A stretch of DNA of 64,000 nucleotides from Chloroflexota bacterium (GTDB lineage: Bacteria > Chloroflexota > Anaerolineae > J036 > Brachytrichaceae), in the NCBI GenBank assembly GCA_030550095.1, contig JAUQQA010000006.1:1-64000 (forward strand). Reading direction: 5' to 3'. The notes below the pieces were generated by a model. It did no database searches, had not been told where the DNA came from, and was given only the letters and a program-made list of their open reading frames with translations. The position numbers and the translations under genes were made by a program. This document shows, in pieces, positions 5,348 through 19,401 of this stretch; the first letter of the stretch is position 1, and each line of letters begins with the position of its first letter.

Positions 5348-5851
5348 ATGCTTGCCCGCGCACACATGCCCGTTGTGCAGTACAGCCGTGCCAGTACCTA
5401 CGCTGAGCGGTTGCTAGTGGCGCATTTCGCCATCATGCTGGTTGGGCTTGTTGCGGTGGTTGGCGCCTGGCGCGATTCCTCGCTCAGCTTCAGCATGATG
5501 GTAGGTGCGCTTGCGTTGTTGGCGCTAGCTGCTTGGTGGCTGATACATGTGCGCCGCACGCGGCTCGTAGTGCAGCCTACCTACACTGCATGTTGCTTGG
5601 GGTGGCTGAGCACAACGGTCAGCACGTGGCATAGCTGGGCTTTCTTCCTGCGGCGTGCCAACCGCTTGGCTGGTCCGCCGACATGGTTCGTGCTTCCCTT
5701 CGTGCGGGTGAGCGTTTGGAGGGCGCTGTGCTCTTCAAGCGCTCACCTTTTTTGCTTTGTCTCGGCAGCCTACATGCGCGGAGTGTTGGCGCATGTTCTG
5801 CAAACTGCATCTGGAGGTAAGGTTTCATGTCCGTGGCATCTGTTCCGGTGA
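5348..5851 (+). CDS. Doubtful ORF with two N-terminal membrane segments
   Basis: 167 residues if translated from ATG 5348 (ATG 5366 is also possible). The first 75 residues look real: an amphipathic start, then two hydrophobic segments (about 25-42 and 50-67). The rest is rich in Cys, Trp and Ser, reads straight through a strong intrinsic terminator and overlaps the start of the pucC-like gene by 25 nt, which a real gene rarely does. It could be a small membrane protein with a frameshift after about residue 80, a decayed gene, or chance. I recognise no family. If it is not a gene, 5236-5826 holds only the terminator and weak promoter-like sequence. Confidence 0.25.
   Translation: MLARAHMPVVQYSRASTYAERLLVAHFAIMLVGLVAVVGAWRDSSLSFSMMVGALALLALAAWWLIHVRRTRLVVQPTYTACCLGWLSTTVSTWHSWAFFLRRANRLAGPPTWFVLPFVRVSVWRALCSSSAHLFCFVSAAYMRGVLAHVLQTASGGKVSCPWHLFR
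5707..5753 (+). terminator. Intrinsic terminator upstream of the pucC-like gene
   Basis: A 12-bp stem (GGTGAGCGTTTG at 5707-5718 with CAAGCGCTCACC at 5736-5747, one G-U pair) and a 17-nt loop, followed at once by TTTTTT. This is the strongest Rho-independent terminator in the window. It lies 74 nt before the ATG of the pucC-like gene, so it ends upstream transcription or acts as an attenuator for that gene. Confidence 0.75.
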
Positions 5852-7263
5852 CTGGTGTCAAGACCACTTCGGTCTCTGATCGTGTGTCTCTGCTCACGAT
5901 CGCGCGGCTGACGGTGCCGAAGCTGGGCGTTTCCTATTTGTTCACGCTGTTGCTCAGCGTGTTCAACCGCGTCATGATCAATGAGCTGGCGATCGCGGCG
6001 GGGTTGATCGGCGGCCTTTACTTCCTCTACCGCTTGATGAACATCTTCCAGGTGTGGGCTGGGCGCTATGCCGATCGGCGACCGATCTTTGGCTTGCGTC
6101 GCACACCAATGATGTTCATTGGCATCATGTTGGCTTCGCTCTCGCTGGTACCGCTTCCTTTTGCTGCCCTGTATTACTCAGAGACACGCAGTGTGCTCGG
6201 CTTGGCTGCCATGGCGGCGAGCCTCGCGCTGTTCGGGCTGGGCTTTGCCATGAACGGCGACGCGCACAACACGCTGATCGCTGAGCAGACCGAGGGCAAG
6301 CGCAATCGCCCTGCGGTGGTGGCGACGGTGTGGCTTTTCCAGATTGTGTTCATCGTGATCAGCGGCATTGCCAGCTCGATTGTGCTTCAGATCGCGGACA
6401 CGCAGGCTGGGGCGCCGCCGAGCTGCACCACAGCAGAGTGTGCCGCGATCCGCAGCGCGGTTGCAGTGCGCATGATGCCTTACTTCTTCCTTATGGGTCC
6501 GGCGATTGGGCTGTTGGGCTTCTTGCCAGTGCTGGGGTTGGAGAAGCGCATGAGCAGCGAGGAGAGGATGCGCGCTAGTGCACAACCCCCGCTGAAGATC
6601 CGCGAAGCCTACGCGCGCATTTTCACCAACCCGCAGGCGCGCGTGTTCTTCTTCTTCATTGTCACCTCGATCTTCGCGCTCTTCTTGCAAGACAACATCC
6701 TCGAGCCCTTTGGTGCGGATGTGTTCAAGCTTGCGCCGCGTCAAACAGCGCAGTTCCAGCCGATCATGGGCATGGGCACGATCATCGCCATGCTGGTGAT
6801 GGGCATCGTGGCGAGCAAGTACCCCATCCCCAAGCGCACCATCGCTGATTGGGGCTTGTTGATCTCCGCTGTGGCGTTCGCGCTGCTCACGCTCTCGGCG
6901 TTGACGCATGTGCTGCCGCTGCTGTTTGCAGGCATCGCTGTGTTGGGGATCGGGATGGGGGTGTTTAACGTCGGCTCGCTCTCAATGATGATGGACATGA
7001 CCGTGCCTGGTGAGGCTGGTTCGCTGATGGGCGCGTGGGGCATGGCGCAGGCGCTCTCGAACGGCTTTGCGCAGTTCATTGGCGGCGCCATGCGCGACAT
7101 CGGCATCCAGCTCACAGGTAGCTTCGAGGCGGCATACTCCATCATCTTCGTCGTCGCCATCGGTATGAGCTTCCTCGGGATGAACCTCGTGGCGCGCGTG
7201 AACGTCGAGCTGTTCCGCAAGCTCACCCGCGAGCAGCTCGTCGCCACGATGGAAGCTGCGTGA
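5827..7263 (+). CDS. PucC/LhaA-family MFS protein
   Basis: 478 residues, about 12 membrane segments, an MFS fold of the PUCC type. Diagnostic stretches are a RPIFGLRRTP loop after helix 2, an AHNTLIAEQTEGKRN region and MMMDMTVPGEAG...GAWGMAQALSNG near the C-terminus. Relatives (PucC, LhaA, bch2) act in the cytoplasmic membrane in light-harvesting complex assembly or pigment delivery. GGAGG lies 9-13 nt before ATG 5827. It opens the pigment cluster, with bchF next after a hairpin. Family confident; which complex it serves is inferred. Confidence 0.88.
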   Translation: MSVASVPVTGVKTTSVSDRVSLLTIARLTVPKLGVSYLFTLLLSVFNRVMINELAIAAGLIGGLYFLYRLMNIFQVWAGRYADRRPIFGLRRTPMMFIGIMLASLSLVPLPFAALYYSETRSVLGLAAMAASLALFGLGFAMNGDAHNTLIAEQTEGKRNRPAVVATVWLFQIVFIVISGIASSIVLQIADTQAGAPPSCTTAECAAIRSAVAVRMMPYFFLMGPAIGLLGFLPVLGLEKRMSSEERMRASAQPPLKIREAYARIFTNPQARVFFFFIVTSIFALFLQDNILEPFGADVFKLAPRQTAQFQPIMGMGTIIAMLVMGIVASKYPIPKRTIADWGLLISAVAFALLTLSALTHVLPLLFAGIAVLGIGMGVFNVGSLSMMMDMTVPGEAGSLMGAWGMAQALSNGFAQFIGGAMRDIGIQLTGSFEAAYSIIFVVAIGMSFLGMNLVARVNVELFRKLTREQLVATMEAA

Positions 7264-7316: not shown

Positions 7317-7361
7317 CGCGCGCATTGTGGGTATCTCGTTGTGGCAAGGGAGTGATTGGCA

Positions 7362-7832
7362 ATGGACTACACCCCTGAGCAACTCGAACGGCGCAACAAG
7401 TCGGTTTGGACGCGCGTGCAGGGCGTCGGCGCTGGTGTGCACTTCATGCTCTTCCTGGCAAGCCTCTTCATGGTGATCCGCTTCGTCACCACAGGGCAGG
7501 ACTATGAGCTGACAACGGCGATTTGCGTGGCGAAGGTGCTGATGCTGTACTTCATGACCGTGACCGGCATGTTTTGGGAGAAGGAAGTGTACGGTCAGTA
7601 CTTCCTCGCCAAGGGCATGTTTTGGGAGGACGTGGGCAACATCATCTCGCTGGCGGGCAACACAAGCTATCTGGTCACACTCCTCGTTGGTGCAGAGAAG
7701 TCGGTGCAGATGATGGCGATGGGTGTAGCGTTGCTCACGTTCTTGATCAACTTCACGCAATTCGCTGTGCGCGGCGTGCGCGCAGCGCGACAGCGCCGCG
7801 CGGCACAGGCGCAACTCTCGAGCGCGCGGTGA
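7362..7832 (+). CDS. bchF: 3-vinyl bacteriochlorophyllide hydratase
   Basis: 156 residues with four predicted membrane helices. BchF hydrates the C3 vinyl group to hydroxyethyl, the substrate later oxidised by BchC on the way to the acetyl group of bacteriochlorophyll a. Recognised from the start 'YTPEQLERRNKSVWTRVQGV', the central 'VTGMFWEKEVYGQY' and the FWED motif. ATG 7362 is chosen because AGGGAG sits about 10 nt upstream; TTG 7356 is in frame. bchI follows after 4 nt. With bchC, bchX and bchY it points to bacteriochlorophyll a rather than chlorophyll a. Confidence 0.9.
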   Translation: MDYTPEQLERRNKSVWTRVQGVGAGVHFMLFLASLFMVIRFVTTGQDYELTTAICVAKVLMLYFMTVTGMFWEKEVYGQYFLAKGMFWEDVGNIISLAGNTSYLVTLLVGAEKSVQMMAMGVALLTFLINFTQFAVRGVRAARQRRAAQAQLSSAR

Positions 7833-7836
7833 ACCT

Positions 7837-8928
7837 ATGACCACGCGCACTGTTGCCCACCCTTATCCCTTCACCGCCATCGTGGGGCAAGAGGAGATGA
7901 AGCTTTGCCTCTTGCTCAACGTCGTGGACCCGCGCATCGGCGGCGTGATGATCATGGGGCATCGCGGCACAGGCAAGAGCACCACCGTCCGCGCGCTCGC
8001 CGACGTGCTGCCCATGATCACGCGCTTGGCAGGCGACCCCTTCAACCGCGCGCCTGAGGACGTTCCTGAGCACGATCCCTTGTTGGCACTGGTGGGTATC
8101 CATGAGCGCCCCCACAAGACGGAAAAAGTGCCGGTGCCCGTGGTGGATTTGCCGCTCGGCGCCACCGAAGATCGCGTGTGCGGCACGATCGACATCGAGG
8201 CGGCGCTGACACAGGGCGTGAAGCGCTTTCAGCCAGGCTTGCTCGCGCAGGCGAATCGCGGCTTCCTTTACATTGACGAGGTGAACTTGCTCGAGGATCA
8301 CCTCGTGGACGTGCTGCTGGACGTTGCCGCAAGTGGCTGGAACGTGGTCGAGCGCGAGGGGATCAGCGTGAGACACCCTGCGCGCTTTGTGCTCGTTGGC
8401 TCGGGCAACCCTGAGGAGGGCGAGCTGCGCCCGCAGTTGCTCGACCGCTTCGGCTTGCATGCGCGCATCGTCACCATCACCGACCTCGAGCAGCGCATGG
8501 AGATCGTGCGTCGGCGCCGCGCTTACGACGCCGACCCCGAGGCGTTTTACGCGCAATGGCAGCCGCAGCAGCGCGCTCTGCAACGGCGCATCGTTGCAGC
8601 GCAGAAGCGCCTGCCCGAGGTGATCATCCCCGACGATGTGTTGATGTTTGCCGCAGAGCTGTGCATGAAGCTCAACGTGGACGGGCATCGCGGCGAATTG
8701 ACGCTCGCGCGCGCGGCTTGCGCGCTCGCCGCGTTGGAAGGGCGCAACCGCGTAACGCTCGACGACGTGCGCCGTGTGGCAGTGCCAGCGCTACGGCATC
8801 GCTTGCGCCGCGACCCGCTCGAGACGATGGACAGCGGCGAGAAGGTGGCGCAAGCAGTGAGTGAATTGCTGGCGCGGCGTAATCATCGCGCCGCAGAGCG
8901 GCCTGCAGAGTTGCTTGAGACAGCGTGA
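7837..8928 (+). CDS. bchI: Magnesium chelatase AAA+ subunit I
   Basis: 363 residues. BchI is the ATPase subunit of the Mg chelatase that inserts Mg2+ into protoporphyrin IX, the committed step to (bacterio)chlorophyll. Walker A GHRGTGKST at 41-49, Walker B FLYIDE at 143-148 (followed by VNLLEDHLVD), and a GSGNPEEGELRPQLLDRF sensor 1/arginine-finger region. Length matches the family. It overlaps bchD by the GTGA junction at 8925-8928 and lies in the order I-D-H, so the three chelatase subunits are made together. Cytosolic. Confidence 0.97.
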   Translation: MTTRTVAHPYPFTAIVGQEEMKLCLLLNVVDPRIGGVMIMGHRGTGKSTTVRALADVLPMITRLAGDPFNRAPEDVPEHDPLLALVGIHERPHKTEKVPVPVVDLPLGATEDRVCGTIDIEAALTQGVKRFQPGLLAQANRGFLYIDEVNLLEDHLVDVLLDVAASGWNVVEREGISVRHPARFVLVGSGNPEEGELRPQLLDRFGLHARIVTITDLEQRMEIVRRRRAYDADPEAFYAQWQPQQRALQRRIVAAQKRLPEVIIPDDVLMFAAELCMKLNVDGHRGELTLARAACALAALEGRNRVTLDDVRRVAVPALRHRLRRDPLETMDSGEKVAQAVSELLARRNHRAAERPAELLETA

Positions 8929-10736
8929 GCACTATGAGCAGCGCGCCGACAACGCTCGACTTCACCAACATTGTCGGCTTGGAGACCGCGCGCCAAGCGT
9001 TGCTGTTGCTTGCGGTGAATCCTGCGCTCGGCGGCGCTGCGATCGCGGCGCGGGTCGGCAGCGGCAAATCCACGTTAGTGCGCGCGTTTGCGGCGTTGCT
9101 GCCACCAGGCACGCCATTCATCGAGTTGCCGCTCAGCATCACCGAAGATCGTTTGCTCGGCGGGCTTGATCTCGAGGCGACGTTAATCAAGGGCGCGCCC
9201 GTGTTTGAGCCAGGCGTGCTGGCGCGCGCACATGGCGGCGTGCTTTACGTGGACAACGCGAATCGCCTTGAGCCTTCTGTCGCGGCGGTGCTCGCCGAGG
9301 CGATGAGCAACGGCTACGTGCGCGTAGAGCGCGAAGGGTTGAGCGCTATCCAGCCGGCGCGCTTCCTGTTGATCGCAACCTACGACCCCGAAGAAGGCGA
9401 TCTGCCGCTGAGCCTGCTCGACCGCTTGGGGTTGATCGTGCCGCTTAGTGCGCAAGGCGACGCAGCCACGCGTGCGGAGGTGGTGCGGCGCAATTTGCAC
9501 CCCGCGCACGACGAGGACGAGTCCAACATGTTGCGCGCAATGATCGTTGCTGCGCGCGAGCTGCTGCCGCGCGTGCAGTTACCCGACGATCACCTTGCGG
9601 CGCTGGTTCAAACAGCGATGGCGCTTGGCGTGGAAGGCAATCGCGCCGACGTGTTTGCAGCGCAGGCAGCGCTCGCCTCTGCCGCGCTGGAGGGGCGCGA
9701 GGTAGTGGACGAAGACGACTTGCAGCGCGCAGTGCGGCTTGTGTTGCTGCCGCGTGCCACACAAGCTCCCACAGAGAACCAGCCTGCGCCGCAGCCGCCA
9801 ACTGCACCGCGCGCCACGGGCACTGCTGAAGAAGAAGGCGAAGATGAGACGCAAAGCGAAGCCGAGCGCCCGATTCAAGAGCTGTTGCTCGAAGCCGCGC
9901 AAGCTGCGCTACCGCCTAACTTGCTGGACTTGCCCTTCGCCGCGCAGCGCCGTGGTCGGCGTGGCAGTCGTGGACAAACGCTCAACGCGCGCCGTGGGCG
10001 CTATGTGCGCGCGGTGATCGGCGATGTGCACGGCGGGCGTATCGCGCTGCTGCCCACGCTCCTGGCGGCAGCACCCTGGCAGCCGCTGCGACGCGCTGCA
10101 AACGAGAAGCGCGTGCACGTGCGCCGCGATGACCTGCGCGTGAAGCGCTACCGCGACAAAGCCGGCACGCTCTACATCTTCGCTGTGGATGCGAGCGGCT
10201 CAATGGCGATCAATCGCATGCGCGAGGCAAAAGGCGCTGCTTTGCGCTTGCTCCAAGACGCTTACGTACACCGCGATCAGGTCGCTTTGATCGCGTTCCG
10301 CGGCCAAGGCGCGCAGGTGTTGTTGCCGCCCTCGCAGAGCGTTGAGCGCGCGCGCCGTGAGTTGGACGTGTTGCCCACCGGCGGCGGCACGCCGCTTGCT
10401 TCGGCGCTGCTCACGGCGTGGCATCTCGCCAAGCAAGCGCGCGAGCGCGGCATTGCGCAAGTCACGCTCGTGCTCATGACCGACGGGCGCGCCAACGTCG
10501 GCTTGCACGCGCCGCCAGGCGACCGCCAGCGTCTCCGCGAGGAAGTCCAACAGCTTGCCGCGCGCCTGCGCGCAGATGGCGTCAACGCGATCGTGCTCGA
10601 CACGCAGGTGAACTATCTCTCGCGCAACGAAGCGCCGCAGTTGGCGCAGTGGCTCGGCGGGCGTTACGTGTATTTGCCCAACGCCCGCGCCGAGCAAATC
10701 GCCAATGCGCTCTCACAATCGGCGCAAGCCGTTTGA
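8925..10736 (+). CDS. bchD: Magnesium chelatase subunit D
   Basis: 603 residues. BchD scaffolds the BchI ring and couples it to BchH. The N-terminal AAA+ half has a nearly complete P-loop (ARVGSGKST at 42-50, first Gly replaced). An acidic, Pro-rich linker follows (about 285-320, EEEGEDE), then a basic patch (RRGRRGSRG) and a C-terminal von Willebrand A domain with MIDAS motif DASGS at 422-426 and a later TDGRANVG. The start is GTG 8925, overlapping bchI; ATG 8934 is an alternative. bchH follows closely. Confidence 0.96.
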   Translation: MSTMSSAPTTLDFTNIVGLETARQALLLLAVNPALGGAAIAARVGSGKSTLVRAFAALLPPGTPFIELPLSITEDRLLGGLDLEATLIKGAPVFEPGVLARAHGGVLYVDNANRLEPSVAAVLAEAMSNGYVRVEREGLSAIQPARFLLIATYDPEEGDLPLSLLDRLGLIVPLSAQGDAATRAEVVRRNLHPAHDEDESNMLRAMIVAARELLPRVQLPDDHLAALVQTAMALGVEGNRADVFAAQAALASAALEGREVVDEDDLQRAVRLVLLPRATQAPTENQPAPQPPTAPRATGTAEEEGEDETQSEAERPIQELLLEAAQAALPPNLLDLPFAAQRRGRRGSRGQTLNARRGRYVRAVIGDVHGGRIALLPTLLAAAPWQPLRRAANEKRVHVRRDDLRVKRYRDKAGTLYIFAVDASGSMAINRMREAKGAALRLLQDAYVHRDQVALIAFRGQGAQVLLPPSQSVERARRELDVLPTGGGTPLASALLTAWHLAKQARERGIAQVTLVLMTDGRANVGLHAPPGDRQRLREEVQQLAARLRADGVNAIVLDTQVNYLSRNEAPQLAQWLGGRYVYLPNARAEQIANALSQSAQAV

Positions 10737-10757
10737 GACCATGTGCTGGAGGTGGCT

Positions 10758-13700
10758 ATGAGCAAACCCAATCTTGTGGCGATTGTCGGGCTGGAGCATT
10801 TCAACAAGAAAGTCTGGGATGAAGTCAAGGCTGACCTTGCACCTGTCGCACACTTGCAGCAGTTCACCGAATGGGAGCTGGAGCGCAAAGACCCAGCCGT
10901 GGCGCAAGCCATCCGCCAAGCCGACTGTTTGTTCATCTCGATGATCAACTTCAAGGAGCAGGCGGATTGGCTGCGCGAGCAAGTGGCGCAATCGAACGCA
11001 AAGGCGGTGTTCGCCTTCGAGTCCATGCCTGAGGTGATGGCGCTCAACCGCGTCGGCGACTACGTGGTGGCGCAAAAGCCCGGGCAGAAGAGCGGCATGC
11101 CCGAGCCAGTGAAGAAGATCGCGCGCATGCTCGTGCGCGGGCGCGATGAAGACACGCTCTACGGCTACACCAAGCTCATGAAGCTCATGCAAACCATGAT
11201 GCGCTTCATGCCCGCAAAGGCGCGCGACTTCAAAAACTGGATGCAGGTGAACATCTACTGGAACCAACCGCTGGCGGTCAACATCAGCAACATGTTCCGC
11301 TTCATCCTGCGCGAGTACTTTGACCCCAGCGTGGAAGCGAAGCCCGTCGTCGAAGTGCCGATGATGGGCTTGTATCATCCCGAAGCCCCCAGCTTCTTCA
11401 AGGACATCAAGAGCTACCGCGATTGGCAAAAGAGGCGCGCGCCAAAGCGCGAACAGACGGCGCGCGAGCGCTACCGCGTGGCGCTGCTGTTTTTCCGCAA
11501 GCACCTGATGCAGGACCGCGGCTACATTGACCGCCTCATCCGCGAGATGGAGGCAGCAGCGCTCGATGTATTGCCGATCTTCGTCGCTGGCGTGGAAGGG
11601 CACGTTGTCGTGCGCGATTGGCTCACGCACGAATCCATTGACGTGCTGGTGAGCACCATCGGCTTCGCGTTGGTCGGCGGTCCTGCCGGCGCCACCAGCC
11701 CCGGCACACACCGCGACGCCGCGATCAGCATCCTGGAGCGGCTTGATGTGCCTTACATCGTGGCGCAGCCGCTCTACGTGCAGGACTTCATCTCATGGAG
11801 CAAACACGGCGTTGGACCGATGCAATCGGCTGCGCTGTATGCGCTCCCTGAGATGGACGGCGCGATTAACCCAGTGGTGATCGGCGCAGTGAACAATGGG
11901 CGCTTCGACGTCGCGCCTGATCGCATCCAACGCTTGATCACGCGCGTGCGCAATTGGGCGCGCCTGCGACACACACCGAACAAGGACAAAAAGATCGCCT
12001 TCGTGGTGTACGACTATCCGCCCGGCTTGGGCAAGAAAGCAACTGCTGCGTTGCTCGACGTGCCGCGCTCACTGTTGAACATCCTGCGCCGCTTGAAGGC
12101 AGAGGGCTACACCGTCGGCGATTTGCCAGAGACGCCCGAGGCGTTGCTGGAGCAACTGGAGGCTGCCACTACACTGCACGCGGGCGGCATCCGCGTCACG
12201 TGGGACGAGTTCAAGCAATGGACCACGCCGCGCGAGCGCGAGCGCATCGAGGAGCGTTGGGGATCGTGGCCTGGTGACATCGCACCTGCAAGCCGCGACG
12301 CAGTGTTTATCGGCGGGCTGCGCTTCGGCAATATCTACATCGGCGTGCAGCCGCGCCTCGGCGTGACGGGCGACCCCATGCGCTTGCTCTTCGACAAAGA
12401 GAACACGCCACACCACCAATACCTCGCGTTCTATCGCTGGATCGCGCGCGGCTTCGGCGCGCACGCGCTGGTGCATGTGGGCATGCACGGCTCAGCGGAG
12501 TGGATGCCCGGCTTGCAGCTCGGGTTGACGCGGAGCTGTTGGCCCGATGCGCTGCTCGGCGAGCTGCCGCAGTTCTACCTCTACCCGATGAACAACCCGA
12601 GCGAGGCAAACATCGCCAAGCGCCGTGGTTATGCCGTGATGATCTCGCACGCCGTGCCGCCCATGACGCGCGCCGGGCTTTACAAGGAGCTAGCGGCGCT
12701 GAAAGACATGTTGCAGGATTACCGCGAGCGCCGCATGGAGCAACGCGATCAGCTTGACCCCGCTTTCGAGGAAGCGATCATGCAAAAGGTGGCGCTGGCG
12801 AACCTCGACACTGATTGCCCGCGCCTGCAAGGCGAAGCATTCGACGACTACGCCGCGCGGCTCTACGCCTACATCCGCGATCTGGAGCAACGCCTGATCA
12901 CCGCCTCGTTGCACGTGTTCGGCGAAGCGCCGCCGCTCGAGTCGCAACTGGTGACGGTGACCGAGGCGTTGAAGGCGCGCGGCAACGGACATAGCTTAGC
13001 GAGTGTGATGTTGCGCGAGATCGCGCCAAACACGGCAGCGCGCCACTACGGCGAATTGGCAACGCTTGCGCGCAAAGGCGATGCAGAAGCGCTGCGCTTG
13101 CGCGAACAAGTGGATGAGGCATGCCGTGCGTTTGTGGAGCGCACGGTCTTCCGCGGCGAATCGCCGGCGAGCGCTTTGCATCGCGTCACGCACAACGGCA
13201 CCCAAATCGCCAACGAGGACGCCGCAGCCTTGATCGAGGCTGCGCAGGTTGGGCGCTACATGGCACACTTGCTCAGCGACAACCGCAACGAGCTGGAGGC
13301 GTTGGTGCGCGGTCTGAATGGTCGCTACATCCCGCCAGCACCAGGCGGCGACCTCATCCGCGACGGCGTTGGCGTGTTGCCCACCGGTCGCAACATTCAC
13401 GCCATTGACCCTTGGCGCATCCCGAGCGAGCTTGCCTATCAGCGCGGCAAGCAGATCGCCGAGGCGCTGCTCGCAAAGCACCTGGAGGAAAACAACGGGC
13501 AATATCCCGAAACAATCGCACAGGTCATTTGGGGCTTGGACACCATCAAGACCAAAGGCGAGGCGATCGCCGTGGTGTTGCACCTGATCGGCGCCAAGCC
13601 GCATTACGATGGGCAGGGCAAGATCAGCCACTACAAGCTGATCCCGCTCAAGGAGCTGGGACGCCCGCGCATTGACGTGCTGATGCAGCTCAGCCCCATC

Positions 13701-14567
13701 TTCCGCGACACGTTCGAGTTGCTCATGGATCACCTCGACCGCTTGGTAAAAGAGGCAGCGCGCGCCGATGAACCCGTGGAGATGAACTTCATCAAGAAGC
13801 ACGTCGAAGAGGCCATGCGCGAGGGGATGACGTTTGAGCAAGCCACGGCGCGCCTCTTCACGCAGCAGCCCGGTCAGTACGGCACTTACGTGGACGACAT
13901 GGTCGAGGATTCAGCGTGGGAGACCGATGACGACCTCGCGCAGACGTTCGTGCGGCGCAACGCCTACGCCTACGGTGGCGGTCGCAACGGGCAGCACGTG
14001 CCGCAAACGCTCACGCGCTTGCTGCGCACAGTGAGCCGCGTTGCGCACACGATTGACTCGGTGGAGTTCGGCGTGACGGACATTGACCATTACTTCTCCG
14101 CCTCGGGCGCGCTACAGCTAGCAGCGCGCAAGCACAGCGGCGCAAACGTCAAGCTCAACTACATCGAGAGCTTCACAGCGGAGACGCGCGTGGATGACCT
14201 GGAGCGCGTGCTGCGCGTCGAATATCGCACTAAGCTGCTCAATCCGCGCTGGTACGAAGGCATGTTGCAACACGGTCACAGCGGCGCTGCGGAGATCAGC
14301 AATCGCTTCACCTACATGCTCGGCTGGGACGCGGTGAGCGGCGCGGTGGACGACTGGACGTACACCGCAGCGGCGCGCACCTTCGCGCTTGATCCCGCCA
14401 TGCGCGAGCGCATCACCAAGCTCAACCCGCAGGCGATGCGCAACATCGTCGGGCGCCTGCTTGAGGCGAACGGGCGCGGCTTGTGGCAAGCTGATGAGGA
14501 AACCATCACGCAGCTGCGCGAGATCTACGCTGACCTTGAAGACAGGTTGGAGGGTGTGTTGGTTTGA
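10758..14567 (+). CDS. bchH: Magnesium chelatase porphyrin-binding subunit H
   Basis: 1269 residues, typical for BchH/ChlH. It binds protoporphyrin IX and carries the metal insertion site. CobN/Mg-chelatase family features run through the protein, including 'VHVGMHGSAEWMPG', 'VLPTGRNIHAIDPWRIPS' and 'YRTKLLNPRWYEGMLQHGHSGAAEI'. ATG 10758 is chosen because GGAGG lies 7 nt upstream; GTG 10743 is in frame. It completes the I-D-H set. Only one H paralogue (not BchS or BchT) is seen in the window. Confidence 0.97.
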   Translation: MSKPNLVAIVGLEHFNKKVWDEVKADLAPVAHLQQFTEWELERKDPAVAQAIRQADCLFISMINFKEQADWLREQVAQSNAKAVFAFESMPEVMALNRVGDYVVAQKPGQKSGMPEPVKKIARMLVRGRDEDTLYGYTKLMKLMQTMMRFMPAKARDFKNWMQVNIYWNQPLAVNISNMFRFILREYFDPSVEAKPVVEVPMMGLYHPEAPSFFKDIKSYRDWQKRRAPKREQTARERYRVALLFFRKHLMQDRGYIDRLIREMEAAALDVLPIFVAGVEGHVVVRDWLTHESIDVLVSTIGFALVGGPAGATSPGTHRDAAISILERLDVPYIVAQPLYVQDFISWSKHGVGPMQSAALYALPEMDGAINPVVIGAVNNGRFDVAPDRIQRLITRVRNWARLRHTPNKDKKIAFVVYDYPPGLGKKATAALLDVPRSLLNILRRLKAEGYTVGDLPETPEALLEQLEAATTLHAGGIRVTWDEFKQWTTPRERERIEERWGSWPGDIAPASRDAVFIGGLRFGNIYIGVQPRLGVTGDPMRLLFDKENTPHHQYLAFYRWIARGFGAHALVHVGMHGSAEWMPGLQLGLTRSCWPDALLGELPQFYLYPMNNPSEANIAKRRGYAVMISHAVPPMTRAGLYKELAALKDMLQDYRERRMEQRDQLDPAFEEAIMQKVALANLDTDCPRLQGEAFDDYAARLYAYIRDLEQRLITASLHVFGEAPPLESQLVTVTEALKARGNGHSLASVMLREIAPNTAARHYGELATLARKGDAEALRLREQVDEACRAFVERTVFRGESPASALHRVTHNGTQIANEDAAALIEAAQVGRYMAHLLSDNRNELEALVRGLNGRYIPPAPGGDLIRDGVGVLPTGRNIHAIDPWRIPSELAYQRGKQIAEALLAKHLEENNGQYPETIAQVIWGLDTIKTKGEAIAVVLHLIGAKPHYDGQGKISHYKLIPLKELGRPRIDVLMQLSPIFRDTFELLMDHLDRLVKEAARADEPVEMNFIKKHVEEAMREGMTFEQATARLFTQQPGQYGTYVDDMVEDSAWETDDDLAQTFVRRNAYAYGGGRNGQHVPQTLTRLLRTVSRVAHTIDSVEFGVTDIDHYFSASGALQLAARKHSGANVKLNYIESFTAETRVDDLERVLRVEYRTKLLNPRWYEGMLQHGHSGAAEISNRFTYMLGWDAVSGAVDDWTYTAAARTFALDPAMRERITKLNPQAMRNIVGRLLEANGRGLWQADEETITQLREIYADLEDRLEGVLV

Positions 14568-14591
14568 GCAAAGTGTTGATGTGAGGGAATG

Positions 14592-15011
14592 ATGATCAGA
14601 GAAAGTGCAGCAAGGCAGTTCTCGTGGGCGCAGTGGTTGCAAGCGCTGCTCATTGCGCTGATCGGCGGCGTGGTCGGCAACCTCGCCGTTTGGGCAGTGA
14701 GCAGCGTTGTGGGCGAGATCAGGGTAGATGCGCTTGAGGTGGCGATCTTCAGCGCGATCGGCGCGCTGGCGGGCGGGGTGCTCTACGCCGCGTTGGCGCG
14801 CGTGATCGCCAACGTGCACGTGCGCAACCGCGTGTTTGTGATCGTGTGCGTAGTGGCGCTTGTGGCCTACGCCTTTGCGCCCCTCGCTGCGATGCAAGCG
14901 CCGTACCGCGAAGGCGCACAGCCGTTCAACGTGCTCACCGTGATCGCCACCGAGCTTATGCACCTGATCAGCGGCGGGTTGGTGATCTTTGCCTTCACAC
15001 GGCGATCTTGA
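14592..15011 (+). CDS. Unknown four-helix membrane protein between bchH and bchC
   Basis: 139 residues with four predicted membrane helices (about 15-37, 47-70, 79-100, 113-135) and a short charged N-terminus. The overall plan resembles small four-helix families such as DUF6069, but I cannot assign one. Two ATG codons in tandem (14589 and 14592) follow GAGGGA. It is 21 nt after bchH and 17 nt before bchC, on the same strand, so it belongs to the pigment operon. It could help to place the chelatase or later enzymes at the membrane; this is speculation from position alone. Confidence 0.7.
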   Translation: MIRESAARQFSWAQWLQALLIALIGGVVGNLAVWAVSSVVGEIRVDALEVAIFSAIGALAGGVLYAALARVIANVHVRNRVFVIVCVVALVAYAFAPLAAMQAPYREGAQPFNVLTVIATELMHLISGGLVIFAFTRRS

Positions 15012-15028
15012 AGAAGAGGAGCACGAGC

Positions 15029-15970
15029 ATGCACACGCGAGCAGTGGTGATCCCAGCCGCCGGGCAGGTGGAGCTGCGCGATGTGGAGCTGAAGCCGCTC
15101 GGCGCTGATGACGTGCTGGTGCGCACGCGCCTCACAAGCATCAGCGCTGGCACGGAGCGCATGTTGTTGCGCGGCGTGATGCCTCATCCCATGTTGCAGT
15201 TCCCCGTCGTGCCCGGCTACGAGACCGTAGGGCAAGTGATTGACGCTGGCGAACGCGCGCGCGCGTGGATTGGCAAGCGCGTGTACGTCGGCGGAAACTA
15301 TGGCTTCGTTGGCATCAATGCCGCGTTCGGCGGACAAAGCGCTTACATCGTCGCGCCGCAGTCGCACGTGACGGAGATCGAAAGTATCAGCGACGAAGAG
15401 GGCGTCTTTCTCGCGCTTGCGGCGACGGCGCTACACGGCGTGGACGTGGCGCACTTGCAGCCAGGCATGCGCGTGTTGGTGCTGGGGCAGGGCGTGGTGG
15501 GGCAACTTGCCGCGCGCTTTGCCAAAGCGCGTGGCGCGCACGTGAGCGTGACGGATAAGGTGCCAGAGCGCTTGAAGTTTTCCGTCGCCGACGAGGTGAT
15601 CTCGCCAGAGCCGCCCCCGCCTGGTCCGCCCGGCCCAGGGGTTTACGATGTGCTCATTGACGCAACAGGCAAGATGGAGGCGATCGCGCCGCGCTTGATG
15701 AGCGTGAAGACCGGAGGGCGTGTCGTCCTGCTCGGTTACTACGAGAAGATCGATCTGCCTTACATGCCCGCCTTTCTGCGCGAGCTGACGTTTGCGGTGA
15801 GCAAGGAGTGGGCGCCAGGCGACCTCGCACGTGCGCGCGACGCCATCGCCGCTAAGCAGATCGAAGTGCGCTCGCTCATCACACATCGCTTGCCCGCATC
15901 AGAAGCAGCGCGCGCGTTTGACCTCGCGCTCAATCATCCAGAGTGTCTCAAGATGGTGATGGAGTGGTGA
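15029..15970 (+). CDS. bchC: 3-hydroxyethyl bacteriochlorophyllide a dehydrogenase
   Basis: 313 residues, medium-chain dehydrogenase fold. BchC oxidises the C3 hydroxyethyl group to acetyl, giving bacteriochlorophyllide a. Family signatures are SAGTERMLLRG, FPVVPGYETVG, the glycine-rich nucleotide site LGQGVVGQLAARFAK (about 150-165) and LGYYEKIDLPY. ATG 15029 has GAGGAG upstream. A Pro-rich insert (PPPPGPPGPG, about 194-203) precedes the ATGKME segment. It lies 40 nt before bchX, in the usual bchC-bchX order. Confidence 0.94.
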   Translation: MHTRAVVIPAAGQVELRDVELKPLGADDVLVRTRLTSISAGTERMLLRGVMPHPMLQFPVVPGYETVGQVIDAGERARAWIGKRVYVGGNYGFVGINAAFGGQSAYIVAPQSHVTEIESISDEEGVFLALAATALHGVDVAHLQPGMRVLVLGQGVVGQLAARFAKARGAHVSVTDKVPERLKFSVADEVISPEPPPPGPPGPGVYDVLIDATGKMEAIAPRLMSVKTGGRVVLLGYYEKIDLPYMPAFLRELTFAVSKEWAPGDLARARDAIAAKQIEVRSLITHRLPASEAARAFDLALNHPECLKMVMEW

Positions 15971-16010: not shown

Positions 16011-17177
16011 ATGACCCCGCGCATGATTGCAATTTACGGCAAAGGCGGAATCGGCAAAAGCTTCTTTACCGCTAACCTCAGCGCAAAGTTGGCGCTGAAG
16101 GGTTTTCGCGTGCTTCAACTCGGCTGCGACCCGAAGCACGATAGCTGCAATGCGCTCTTTGGTGGGCGCAGCCTGCCCACCATCGGTGATCAGTGGCGCT
16201 TGTTCAAGGACACTGGGCGCGAGAAAGAGCTGGACGTGCGCCACATGATCTTCAAAGCCGATCTCGGCAAGGGCGTGCAGCTCTTCTGTGCTGAGCTAGG
16301 CGGCCCCGAAGTGGGGCGCGGCTGTGGCGGGCGCGGCATTTCGTTCGGCTTTAGCCTGTTGGAAGAGCGCGGCTTGGCGAATTGGGCGCTCGACTACATC
16401 GTGATGGACTTCCTCGGCGATGTGGTGTGCGGCGGGTTTGCGACGCCGATCGCCAAAAGCCTCGCCGAAGAGATCATCATCGTCGCCAGCCACGACCGCA
16501 TGAGCCTCTACTCCGCCAACAACATCGCGCGCGCGGTGAACTACTTCCAATCCATCGGTGGCAAGTCGCGCGTGCTTGGTCTGGTGCTCAACCGCGATGA
16601 TGGCAGTGGTGTTGCCGAGCGCTTCGCCGAGAAGACAGGCATCCCCATCTTGGCGAAGATCCCCTACAGCCCCGCTGCGCGCATGCTCAGCGATCAGTGC
16701 AAGTTGCTCTTCGAGCTGCCCGAGATGGATTACATCTTCGATCAGTTCGTGAACAAGTTGCATCGTCGTGAGTTTGTGCCGCCTGAGAAGGTCACGCCGC
16801 TGGAGTACGACGAGTTCCTTGCCGTGTTTGGCGCACATGAGCCAGACATCGAGCCGCCAGGAGCAACAATGGACGACCTCATGGGGCGCACAAGCGAAGC
16901 GGTGGTCGGCATTGACCTCGACAGCCCTGAGTACAGCCCCGATAGCAAGCGCCTTGCTTGGCGCATCATGCAGGAGTTGGGCTTAAAGGTGGTGCGCCTC
17001 ACCGAGGAGCCGGAGCTTGGCGTGGTGGTTCAGACGGATGCGGGTTGGGAGGCCATCTTCGGCGACCCTGCCGAGGACACTGACGCCAAGATCGCCATCC
17101 TCTCTGCGCTCAGCCATAGCGGCGAGCGCTTCCACCGTGCCGACTTGCGCTACACCGCTGCGCCCTTCTACGAGTGA
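16011..17177 (+). CDS. bchX: Chlorophyllide a reductase iron protein X, with a long C-terminal extension
   Basis: 388 residues. BchX is the NifH-like ATPase that passes electrons to BchYZ to reduce the B ring of chlorophyllide a, giving the bacteriochlorin. P-loop GKGGIGKS at 10-17; the Cys residues placed to bridge the [4Fe-4S] cluster across the dimer are C105 (RGCGGRG) and C140 (VVCGGF). AGGAGG precedes ATG 16011. The conserved core ends near residue 300. About 88 extra residues follow, and 310-388 resemble the beta domain of FtsQ (a TDAGWEAIFG strand pair, then DLRYTAAPFY). Proteobacterial BchX is about 330 residues. Confidence 0.95.
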   Translation: MTPRMIAIYGKGGIGKSFFTANLSAKLALKGFRVLQLGCDPKHDSCNALFGGRSLPTIGDQWRLFKDTGREKELDVRHMIFKADLGKGVQLFCAELGGPEVGRGCGGRGISFGFSLLEERGLANWALDYIVMDFLGDVVCGGFATPIAKSLAEEIIIVASHDRMSLYSANNIARAVNYFQSIGGKSRVLGLVLNRDDGSGVAERFAEKTGIPILAKIPYSPAARMLSDQCKLLFELPEMDYIFDQFVNKLHRREFVPPEKVTPLEYDEFLAVFGAHEPDIEPPGATMDDLMGRTSEAVVGIDLDSPEYSPDSKRLAWRIMQELGLKVVRLTEEPELGVVVQTDAGWEAIFGDPAEDTDAKIAILSALSHSGERFHRADLRYTAAPFYE

Positions 17178-17238
17178 GTGAATGCGCTACACCTAACTTG
17201 ACGAATTCAACCTACACTTGAAATGACCTGGACGCGCC

Positions 17239-17922
17239 ATGAACAACTATCCTGAGTTCCCCCTCAGCCTTGCGTTGCAGAACTACATGCCCGTTGCGTT
17301 TTCCGCGATCGGGCTTGTTTTGATCGCGCGCATGTTGCAGCGTGAACACGCGCCCGCCGGTCGCCTCGCATGGGTAGGTGCTGCGGTGCTCATCTTCGCT
17401 GGGGTGATGAAGGCGAGTTGGAAGCTCGCAATGGCAATTGCGCGGGTGGATGTTCCTTTTTTCAACCAGGGCTTCTTCCCGATGATCGCACCAGGGTTTT
17501 TGCTCATGGCGTGGAGTGTATGGTCGAACCAACGTGCGCTTTCGGCACGCGCCGTAGCGCTGCCGCCGCTCGTGGCGGTCGTAGTGGTGCTGGGGGTGGC
17601 GGCTTTGCTCGCGCAGCTTGCTGCTGGGCGCACATGGGCGCATTGGCTCATTGCTGTCGCTACGGTGGGCAACGTCTCGCTCGCGCTGTTGCTCACGCGC
17701 CGCGCGTTGTCTCAGCGACAGCCGCTTGCAGCCACATTGTTTGTGTTGAACTTGCTGATTACGTTTGCGCTCAGCGCGATCGCAGGCATGCCCGAAAAGC
17801 CATTGCACATCCACTGGACTGAGCAAATCATCAGCACGATCTCCAACGCTGGGTTTGCGTGGGCGGCGTGGATGATCGCACAGCGTCGGGTTGTGCCTGC
17901 CGCGCAGTGGGCATCTGCTTGA
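17239..17922 (+). CDS. Unknown polytopic membrane protein between bchX and bchY
   Basis: 227 residues with about six to seven hydrophobic helices and short loops. I recognise no family. Start ATG 17239; 61 nt separate it from bchX. Its stop is 24 nt before bchY, whose AGGAGGAG ribosome site lies in that gap. Sitting between two subunits of the same enzyme, it is almost certainly expressed with them. It may anchor chlorophyllide reductase or its electron donor, or may move pigment, but no motif supports a specific role. Confidence 0.75.
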   Translation: MNNYPEFPLSLALQNYMPVAFSAIGLVLIARMLQREHAPAGRLAWVGAAVLIFAGVMKASWKLAMAIARVDVPFFNQGFFPMIAPGFLLMAWSVWSNQRALSARAVALPPLVAVVVVLGVAALLAQLAAGRTWAHWLIAVATVGNVSLALLLTRRALSQRQPLAATLFVLNLLITFALSAIAGMPEKPLHIHWTEQIISTISNAGFAWAAWMIAQRRVVPAAQWASA

Positions 17923-17946
17923 AATACGAGAGGAGGAGTTCAGCCA

Positions 17947-19401
17947 ATGACCAACATGACCGTGCCAGAAGGTAACCTGATCACGCCCGAGATCATCGGC
18001 GTGCGTGGCACATCTTCTGGAAACCCTGCACCTGAAACACCGCTTCCGAAAGGGCACAGCGTCTCACCTGATTACAACCTAACGCCGCAGACGATGTGCC
18101 CGGCGTTTGGTAGCTTGCGCGTGCTCACGCGCATTGACGGCGTGCAAACGGCAATGGTGACCGACACCGGCTGTTTGTACGGCTTGACCTTCGTGACGCA
18201 CTTCTACGCCGCGCGCAAAAGCATCGCCGCGCCAGCGTTCGGCACGAAAGAGTTGGTCGCTGGCAATGTTGCCGAAGCAGCGATCGCCGCGTGTGTGGAG
18301 GCGAGCAAGGTGCCGGGCACGAAGCTGATCGCGGCGATCTCGCTGTGCGTTGCTGAGACTGCTGGCTTGACCGAAGAAATGTTGCCACCGCAGATCAACG
18401 GGATTGACGTGATCCTGGTGCGCGTGCCCGCATACGCTATCCACTCGCATCCTGAGGCGAAAGACGTGGCGATCAACGCCATTCTGAAGAAGTACGCGCC
18501 GCCGCGCATGGAGACCACGGCTGAAGGCGTGGAGAAACCCATGACATACGACGGCAGCAACGCCGAGGAAGAGGAGCTGCGCCGCAAGGTGATCATGCTC
18601 GGCGAGTTGTTCCCTGCTGATCCGATCTCGGTGGACACTGTGCTCAAGCGGTTGGGCAGTGGCTTGGCGGCAACGTTGCCGTCGCGCAACTTGGACGACT
18701 ACAAGTTGGCGCGGCGCGTGGGTGCCATCGCTGCTGTGCATCCGTTCTACAGCGGCAGCGTGGCGACGTTGCGCGCCGCGGGCGTGCCGATCATCACGGG
18801 CGCGCCGGTCGGTCCTGAGGCGAGCTACAACTGGATCAAGGCTGTTGGTGCGGCGCTCAGGCTCGATCCAGCACTCACGGAACAAGTGGCCTCAGAGGAG
18901 CGCGAGAAGTGCCGCGCGATCTTGCAGCGGTTCTCGCTAAAAGGTCGCCGCATTCACGTATGCGGCTACGAGGGCAACGAGTTGCTTTACGCGCGCTTGT
19001 TGGTGGAGGCCGGCGCAGAGGTGCCTTACATCAGCACCAGCATTCAGAAATCGCTCTACACCGCTGCGGACGAGGCATGGCTCAAGGCGCGTGGCACGCG
19101 CGAGATCGTGTATCAAAAGACGCTCGAGCAAGATATCCGCGCGCTAGACGTGTACAAGCCCGATCTCGTTCTGGGCACGACGCCGCTGAGCGCCGAGGCG
19201 AAGCAGCGCGGTATCCCAGCGATGTACTACACAAACATGCTCAGCGTGCGCCCGCTGTTCCTCAGCGCGGGCTTGGCGGGGACGATCCAGCTAATCCAGG
19301 AGGCGCTGGAGCGCGCGCCGCGTTACGAGTGGATGCGCGAGTTCTTCGAGGGCCCGCGCGCACCAGAACCGCAAGCGGCGGTGATGAACACGCTGGATTG
19401 A
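17947..19401 (+). CDS. bchY: Chlorophyllide a reductase subunit Y
   Basis: 484 residues. With BchZ it forms the catalytic component of chlorophyllide a reductase, related to the nitrogenase MoFe protein. Diagnostic MCPAFGSLRV at 50-59 supplies a cluster Cys (C51), and C76 lies in DTGCLYGLTF. Further conserved parts are PPQINGIDVI, the GAPVGPEASYNW region and YYTNMLSVRPLF near the end. A strong AGGAGGAG site precedes ATG 17947. Its partner bchZ is not next door: a terminator and the convergent sdh operon follow. Confidence 0.93.
   Translation: MTNMTVPEGNLITPEIIGVRGTSSGNPAPETPLPKGHSVSPDYNLTPQTMCPAFGSLRVLTRIDGVQTAMVTDTGCLYGLTFVTHFYAARKSIAAPAFGTKELVAGNVAEAAIAACVEASKVPGTKLIAAISLCVAETAGLTEEMLPPQINGIDVILVRVPAYAIHSHPEAKDVAINAILKKYAPPRMETTAEGVEKPMTYDGSNAEEEELRRKVIMLGELFPADPISVDTVLKRLGSGLAATLPSRNLDDYKLARRVGAIAAVHPFYSGSVATLRAAGVPIITGAPVGPEASYNWIKAVGAALRLDPALTEQVASEEREKCRAILQRFSLKGRRIHVCGYEGNELLYARLLVEAGAEVPYISTSIQKSLYTAADEAWLKARGTREIVYQKTLEQDIRALDVYKPDLVLGTTPLSAEAKQRGIPAMYYTNMLSVRPLFLSAGLAGTIQLIQEALERAPRYEWMREFFEGPRAPEPQAAVMNTLD

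Follow-up and report, generated by a model that had tools for sequence, protein, structure and literature searches.

A conserved, apparently accessory membrane protein encoded between bchX and bchY in two genera of Thermoflexales

The gene orf227, which lies between bchX and bchY in two genera of phototrophic Thermoflexales, encodes an unnamed membrane protein with seven predicted helices. The strongest claim that our findings support is that this protein is a conserved accessory member of the bch operon in these genera; we regard it as accessory rather than as part of an essential enzyme because close phototrophic relatives manage without the gene. The window analysed here is a stretch of 64,000 nucleotides (positions 1 to 64,000 of contig JAUQQA010000006.1, assembly GCA_030550095.1) from genome G000 of family f1 (Thermoflexales), for which 28 genomes were compared with all candidates scored. 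Within the window, orf227 (17239-17922, plus strand, ATG start, 227 amino acids) begins 61 bp after the stop codon of bchX and ends 24 bp before the start of bchY, all three genes sharing one strand. bchX (16011-17177), encoding the chlorophyllide reductase iron protein, matches TIGR02016 at 1.6e-111 (372 bits against an equivalog cut-off of 331), and bchY (17947-19401), encoding chlorophyllide reductase subunit Y, matches TIGR02015 at 8e-135 (450 bits against an equivalog cut-off of 425), which bears out the preliminary description of an open reading frame between these two genes. A mechanical call also returned a longer antisense frame of 281 amino acids (17212-18057, minus strand). We prefer the plus-strand frame because it is the conserved one, with 11 intact orthologues under purifying selection at low dN/dS.

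Upstream of bchX, and likewise on the plus strand, are bchC (15029-15970; TIGR01202, 3e-90), for which an internal ATG of the 14846-15970 frame was taken as the start, a gene for a DUF6069 small membrane protein in the gap between bchH and bchC (14589-15011; PF19545, 1.3e-6), and bchH itself (10743-14567; TIGR02025). The DUF6069 gene is found in the same gap in genomes G002 and G025 as well. Two further frames (7837-8928 and 8925-10736, plus strand) are probably bchI- and bchD-like; tblastn gave relatives in most phototroph loci that reach that far. They are preceded on the same strand by bchF, encoding 3-vinyl bacteriochlorophyllide hydratase (7356-7832; PF07284, 1.2e-41 at G000:C16:7368-7775), and by a gene for a PucC-family protein (5827-7263; PF03209, 1.4e-66). 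The bchZ of this genome (G000:C16 63855-65387; L205:2356-3888) is encoded on the opposite strand to bchY, some 45 kb away from it, and runs partly past the right end of the window. Fragment L153 of G002 (G002:C67:1-3408) carries a second run of bchH, the DUF6069 gene, bchC, bchX and orf227, its BchX being 86% identical to that of the window; it may represent a second copy of the operon or, failing that, a stray contig.

A profile of the orf227 family matches 14 of the 28 f1 genomes, namely every genome of genera g1 (3/3) and g6 (9/9) and two of the four genomes of g2, a genus with family members yet no BchX. BchX was found in 16 of the 28 and BchF in 17, the additional genome being G001; there the contig stops shortly before the start of orf227, which leaves bchX beyond its end. 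With f1 phototrophs defined as the BchF-positive genomes (n=17), orf227 is present in 12, comprising all of the g1 and g6 genomes. It adjoins bchY in each of these and has bchX upstream in 11, G001 being the twelfth. The gaps that flank it are short in the eight loci measured; in G023, two small open reading frames, one encoding a PIN-domain protein, intervene between bchX and orf227. The G026 copy is broken, with its 5' part missing and a frame-shift near its 3' end, beside intact bchX and bchY. A synteny search had been proposed in the preliminary description, and the bchX-orf-bchY arrangement indeed recurs in every g1 and g6 genome examined (12/12, with one bchX past the contig end and one orf227 broken). 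Five bchX-positive phototrophs of f1 have no member of the family at all: G006 (g5), G008 (g7) and G009, G014 and G018 (g8).

In G008, the slot between bchX and bchY is filled by a DUF3623/PuhE gene (L159:9166-10047), the only PuhE among the 28 f1 genomes; its product shares 42% identity with a plasmid-borne PuhE from purple bacteria. G009 and G014 have no gene there and at most 85-190 bp, while in G006 the genes after bchX are one for phytoene synthase and a carotenoid gene, with no bchY in the 7 kb examined downstream. For comparison beyond f1, we take f86 to be Roseiflexaceae, f50 Chloroflexaceae and g95 Chloroflexus. The four Roseiflexaceae loci measured have bchX-bchY gaps of 1.0-1.6 kb, and a DUF169 (COG2043) gene sits in the slot in G199, G378 and G431. 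An open reading frame downstream of bchX in Chloroflexus G175 resembles it by eye; of these frames after bchX (L142:6550-7278, L143:5387-6133, L154:8115-8855 and L144:9144-9989), the G431 copy on L154 was assigned with Pfam and the others by eye. A second, diverged DUF3623 gene also lies a few kb from bchX in Roseiflexaceae G222, G383, G389 and G371 (e.g. L141:10912-11610).

PuhE (DUF3623, PF12291) is a polytopic photosynthetic complex assembly protein which, like orf227, is encoded with photosynthesis genes and which takes the same position in G008. Across the phylum it occurs in 30 of 400 genomes, all 30 of them BchX-positive, as against 1/28 within f1. Its conserved motifs differ from those of orf227, and there is no detectable homology between the two: hhalign of the orf227 family against 18 Chloroflexota PuhE sequences returned a probability of 0.8%, and the reading of orf227 as a diverged PuhE was rejected. 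None of the 12 genomes with an operon orf227 has PuhE. Simple replacement of one by the other does not describe the distribution either, for the g5 and g8 phototrophs have neither.

The preliminary description had recognised no family for orf227, and we likewise find none at cut-off. At E up to 1, Pfam listed solely NnrS (E 0.22) and NCBIfam solely TIGR04086 (E 0.79), both below cut-off; neither PF12291 nor PF07284 was listed, and TIGR02021 (BchM) was not matched. A Pfam scan of 20 family members gave no consistent family, and a search of PDB sequences with the family profile at E up to 1 gave no matches. Identity with the BchF hydratase was rejected, there being no PF07284 match and a separate bchF at 7356-7832. 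In the available portions of the literature searched (including PMC8446752, PMC5826079, PMC7842958, PMC10151467, PMC8941918 and PMC10443036) we found no mention, for this lineage, of any gene lying between bchX and bchY.

That the protein is polytopic, as had been proposed, is upheld by an AlphaFold2 model (3 sequences, pLDDT 76) with helices at residues 16-36, 38-68, 75-98, 103-127, 133-158, 162-182 and 189-214, and by a strong positive-inside pattern. Across the aligned family, mean Lys+Arg reaches 2.5-2.8 for the loops that follow helices 1, 3 and 5 and 1.4 for the C-terminus; it drops to 0.1-0.6 for the N-terminus and for the loops that follow helices 2 and 6, with 1.2 after helix 4. By the positive-inside rule, an N-out, C-in topology is predicted. 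K58, K62, F80, P85, G86, W133, W193 and E195 are among the residues that 85% or more of 45 sequences share, and the model taken with the charge rule places these eight near the outer side of the predicted membrane protein. The conserved G55, K58 and K62 fall in the predicted helix 38-68 (17350-17442, plus strand; model and alignment). The predicted last transmembrane helix (residues 189-214; 17803-17880, plus strand) combines the family-conserved W193 and E195 with residues specific to the bch clade: H192 is present in 11/11 bch copies and 0/34 others, and S199, N203 and W208 are fixed in the clade, none of them being a common letter at its position outside it. Foldseek comparison of the model with the PDB gave no matches at E up to 0.001 (best E 0.06). 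With rhodopsin- and GPCR-like bundles, VIA reached a Z of 9.4 at most (rmsd 5.5, 214 residues), a value within the range of generic helical bundles; the resemblance concerns the gross arrangement of seven helices. A Myomaker fold match (VIA Z 8.9, rmsd 4.1, 172 aligned) was discarded, since generic bundles reach such scores.

Phylogenetic analysis of 45 proteins of the orf227 family, including the 11 intact bch-linked copies, gathered those 11 into one clade (100/100), split into g1 and g6 groups, and placed the g6 paralogues in a separate clade (100/99). The tree leaves open the relative order of the bch clade, the g6 paralogues and the Chloroflexaceae genes. A BchX+BchC tree set g7 and g8 apart (97/93) without ordering g1, g5 and two g6 groups; because of this, it is compatible both with loss of orf227 in g5 and with g5 never having had it. 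orf227 is under purifying selection: dN/dS is about 0.11-0.35 in nearly all pairs, the exceptions (0.40 and 0.48) being two very close pairs, and is roughly two to four times the value for bchX and bchY (0.04-0.11). In genome pairs L027/L028 and L029/L031, dS of orf227 is 0.09 and 0.03 against 0.34 and 0.13 for bchX, which suggests local recombination. The three g1 genomes and four of the nine g6 genomes possess no complete family copy besides the operon orf227.

Homologues of orf227 also occur in non-phototrophic Chloroflexota and in Chloroflexaceae. A family specific to phototrophy was rejected on finding 10 of 32 matching genomes without BchX (at most seven candidates were scored per genome, so misses are soft). 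Outside Chloroflexota, the search gave one partial match on a Butyrivibrio plasmid (35% over 41% of the query). The unnamed Anaerolineae and Chloroflexaceae paralogues are true homologues, about 28-46% identical to orf227 and sharing most of its conserved residues; in contrast to it, they lie outside bch operons, in a catabolic operon or as lone genes, and have Q, V or I in place of H192. The preliminary description had held that occurrence in unrelated contexts with a known function would count against its proposal; the homologues do lie in unrelated contexts, with no known function attached. In Chloroflexaceae a homologue is found patchily, in 19 of 41 genomes, and is mostly a lone gene without pigment neighbours in the loci read. 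A BchI-like gene neighbours the homologue in four of six Chloroflexus loci examined; an operon of the two was rejected, as the BchI-like gene is on the other strand, pointing towards the homologue, in all four. In Chloroflexus G191 alone, a V4R-domain protein gene (L074:8038-8730) lies beside the homologue; its score (E 3.7e-7) falls slightly short of the curated cut-off.

The Anaerolineae paralogues have other company. Five g6 genomes share an operon-like run of genes for an alpha/beta hydrolase, the paralogue, an RCC_reductase-like protein (PF06405) and an isochorismatase, accompanied by a Rieske oxygenase, an FAD monooxygenase, a PrpB-type lyase and a divergent Amdase/racemase-family gene. 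The RCC_reductase-like gene was identified in L034 (PF06405, 3e-14) and in the other four g6 loci by 84-95% identity to it. The paralogue locus of G046 shares with this cluster the RCC_reductase (1.6e-11), FAD enzyme, hydrolase, isochorismatase and Amdase genes, and that of G161 shares three genes of the G046-type cluster; in G015 and G019 the Amdase gene and FAD enzyme recur, to which G019 adds the RCC_reductase gene (3.7e-14), and G057 and G122 share none. An RCC_reductase-like gene thus lies near the paralogue in 7 of 11 Anaerolineae loci examined (five g6, G046 and G019), a raw count over the fetched stretches. The catabolic cluster with its RCC_reductase-like gene, oxygenases and hydrolases can be viewed at L034:4904-15701, L033, L036, L037, L039, L038 and L041. 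A PaO-like Rieske oxygenase beside the paralogue was considered and rejected, as the models listed by Pfam (Rieske, VanA_C or Ring_hydroxyl_A) were all generic. RCC reductases are distant kin of ferredoxin-dependent bilin reductases, with related sequences in other bacteria (PMC10151467). The cluster is possibly a bacterial pathway for breakdown of tetrapyrroles or N-heterocycles. The RCC_reductase-like neighbour constitutes a second, weaker link to tetrapyrroles, and one that concerns the paralogue, not orf227 itself.

Published genomes of the lineage are described as having no bchM, bchE/acsF or bchLNB, although BChl a fluorescence is seen in cells that have tentatively been assigned to it (PMC8446752, PMC5826079). 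How phototrophic Thermoflexales would make BChl a without these enzymes is a published open question (PMC8446752, PMC5826079, PMC7842958). Across the 28 f1 genomes, we likewise found no BchM (TIGR02021) at E up to 1e-15, no BchL at E up to 1e-70 and no BchE over cut-off. The five f1 phototrophs without orf227 also have no BchM, BchL or BchE; hence orf227 is not a common substitute for these enzymes, and its identity with a shared missing BchM, BchL or BchE was rejected. Wherever bchZ comes after bchY in f1 (10/10 loci), the gene directly behind bchZ encodes an ICMT/PEMT-like membrane methyltransferase (L159:13026-13631, also L027-L032, L035, L140 and L158; PF04191 3e-15 and PF04140 1e-13 on the L159 copy). 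Since f1 genomes have no BchM, its product is a candidate replacement for the Mg-protoporphyrin methyl-ester step, and a better one than orf227 for the missing methyltransferase; tblastn found no such gene in the window or the rest of its contig.

As our leading but tentative reading, to which we give less than even weight, orf227 is an accessory inner-membrane protein that would have been recruited into the bch operon out of a seven-helix protein family that spans Chloroflexota, become fixed between bchX and bchY in two Thermoflexales genera and been kept there by selection, and that may hold or hand on a (bacterio)chlorophyll intermediate. The conserved outer-side site would bind an amphiphilic ligand, in the bch clade (bacterio)chlorophyll(ide) or a precursor, and the protein would hold the pigment at the membrane or pass it towards BchF, BchG, PucC or the reaction centre, neither catalysing a step nor serving as a subunit of BchXYZ. 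We infer a tetrapyrrole ligand from two independent gene neighbourhoods together with the clade-specific histidine; the ancestral function need not involve tetrapyrroles, since the Chloroflexaceae homologues are mostly lone and patchy. We count in support the constant slot (12/12), the 100/100 clade, dN/dS, topology, the conserved residues, H192, the RCC_reductase link of the paralogue, the presence of PuhE in the same slot of G008 and the restriction of PuhE elsewhere in the phylum to BchX-positive genomes; counted against it are the five f1 phototrophs without the gene and the broken G026 copy. TspO/PBR, an integral membrane protein that is small (about 160 amino acids, five helices), rich in Trp and connected with tetrapyrroles, may by analogy be a model for such action, although orf227 has no sequence-family match. 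Almost as likely is that orf227 is a general-purpose Chloroflexota membrane protein co-expressed in the operon as a passenger, with a function unrelated to pigment (e.g. lipid, quinone or envelope homeostasis). Homologues in non-phototrophs and lone genes in Chloroflexaceae would fit this, as would a slot that tolerates inserts (DUF3623, DUF169, and the PIN-domain gene and its neighbour in G023) and the absence or breakage of orf227 in some phototrophs. It accords less well with the keeping of one slot across two genera under purifying selection, with genomes of both genera that retain the operon copy alone, or with clade-specific changes at the conserved site.

The preliminary description had gone further in suggesting, from position, a membrane partner of chlorophyllide reductase. 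A conserved and selected member of the bch operon in two genera is what we find; reductase partnership as such did not hold up, with the gene absent from 5/17 phototrophs, broken in G026, and its slot occupied by other genes elsewhere or, in two g8 genomes, by none. We consider it improbable that orf227 is a dedicated partner or anchor, perhaps enabling the missing protochlorophyllide reduction by BchXYZ, notwithstanding the short gaps to bchX and bchY and the conjunction of absent BchL (0/28) with a bifunctional BchXYZ, as proposed in PMC8446752 and PMC7842958. G006, G008, G009, G014 and G018 have BchX with neither BchL nor orf227, the broken G026 copy stands beside intact bchX and bchY, and the conserved residues are predicted on the outer side, away from the soluble enzyme. 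Moreover, the BChl a pathway has been rebuilt in E. coli from 18 genes, though those of other organisms (PMC10443036). With the gene missing from five phototrophs of the family and decayed in one species, an obligate partnership is unlikely. Far less probable still is that orf227 takes the place, as an unrecognised enzyme, of the missing BchM, BchE/AcsF or BchLNB: the absence of BchM, BchL and over-cut-off BchE from all 28 f1 genomes and the published pathway gap invite the thought, but the five phototrophs without orf227 miss the same genes, orf227 matches no family of such enzymes, and family members occur in non-phototrophs.

Given the missing enzymes, conserved uncharacterised genes in Thermoflexales bch operons are natural candidates for attention. 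For orf227, our findings narrow the role to an accessory one, distinct from the shared missing enzyme, and tie the protein to an unnamed membrane family. A more ambitious view, which we think unlikely, is that orf227 founds a class of tetrapyrrole-binding seven-helix proteins, in which the paralogue would serve an operon for the breakdown of open-chain tetrapyrroles, together with the RCC-reductase-like enzyme. The bch copy, with its new histidine at the conserved site, would bind or carry bacteriochlorophyll intermediates in organisms whose route to bacteriochlorophyll is without several of the usual enzymes.
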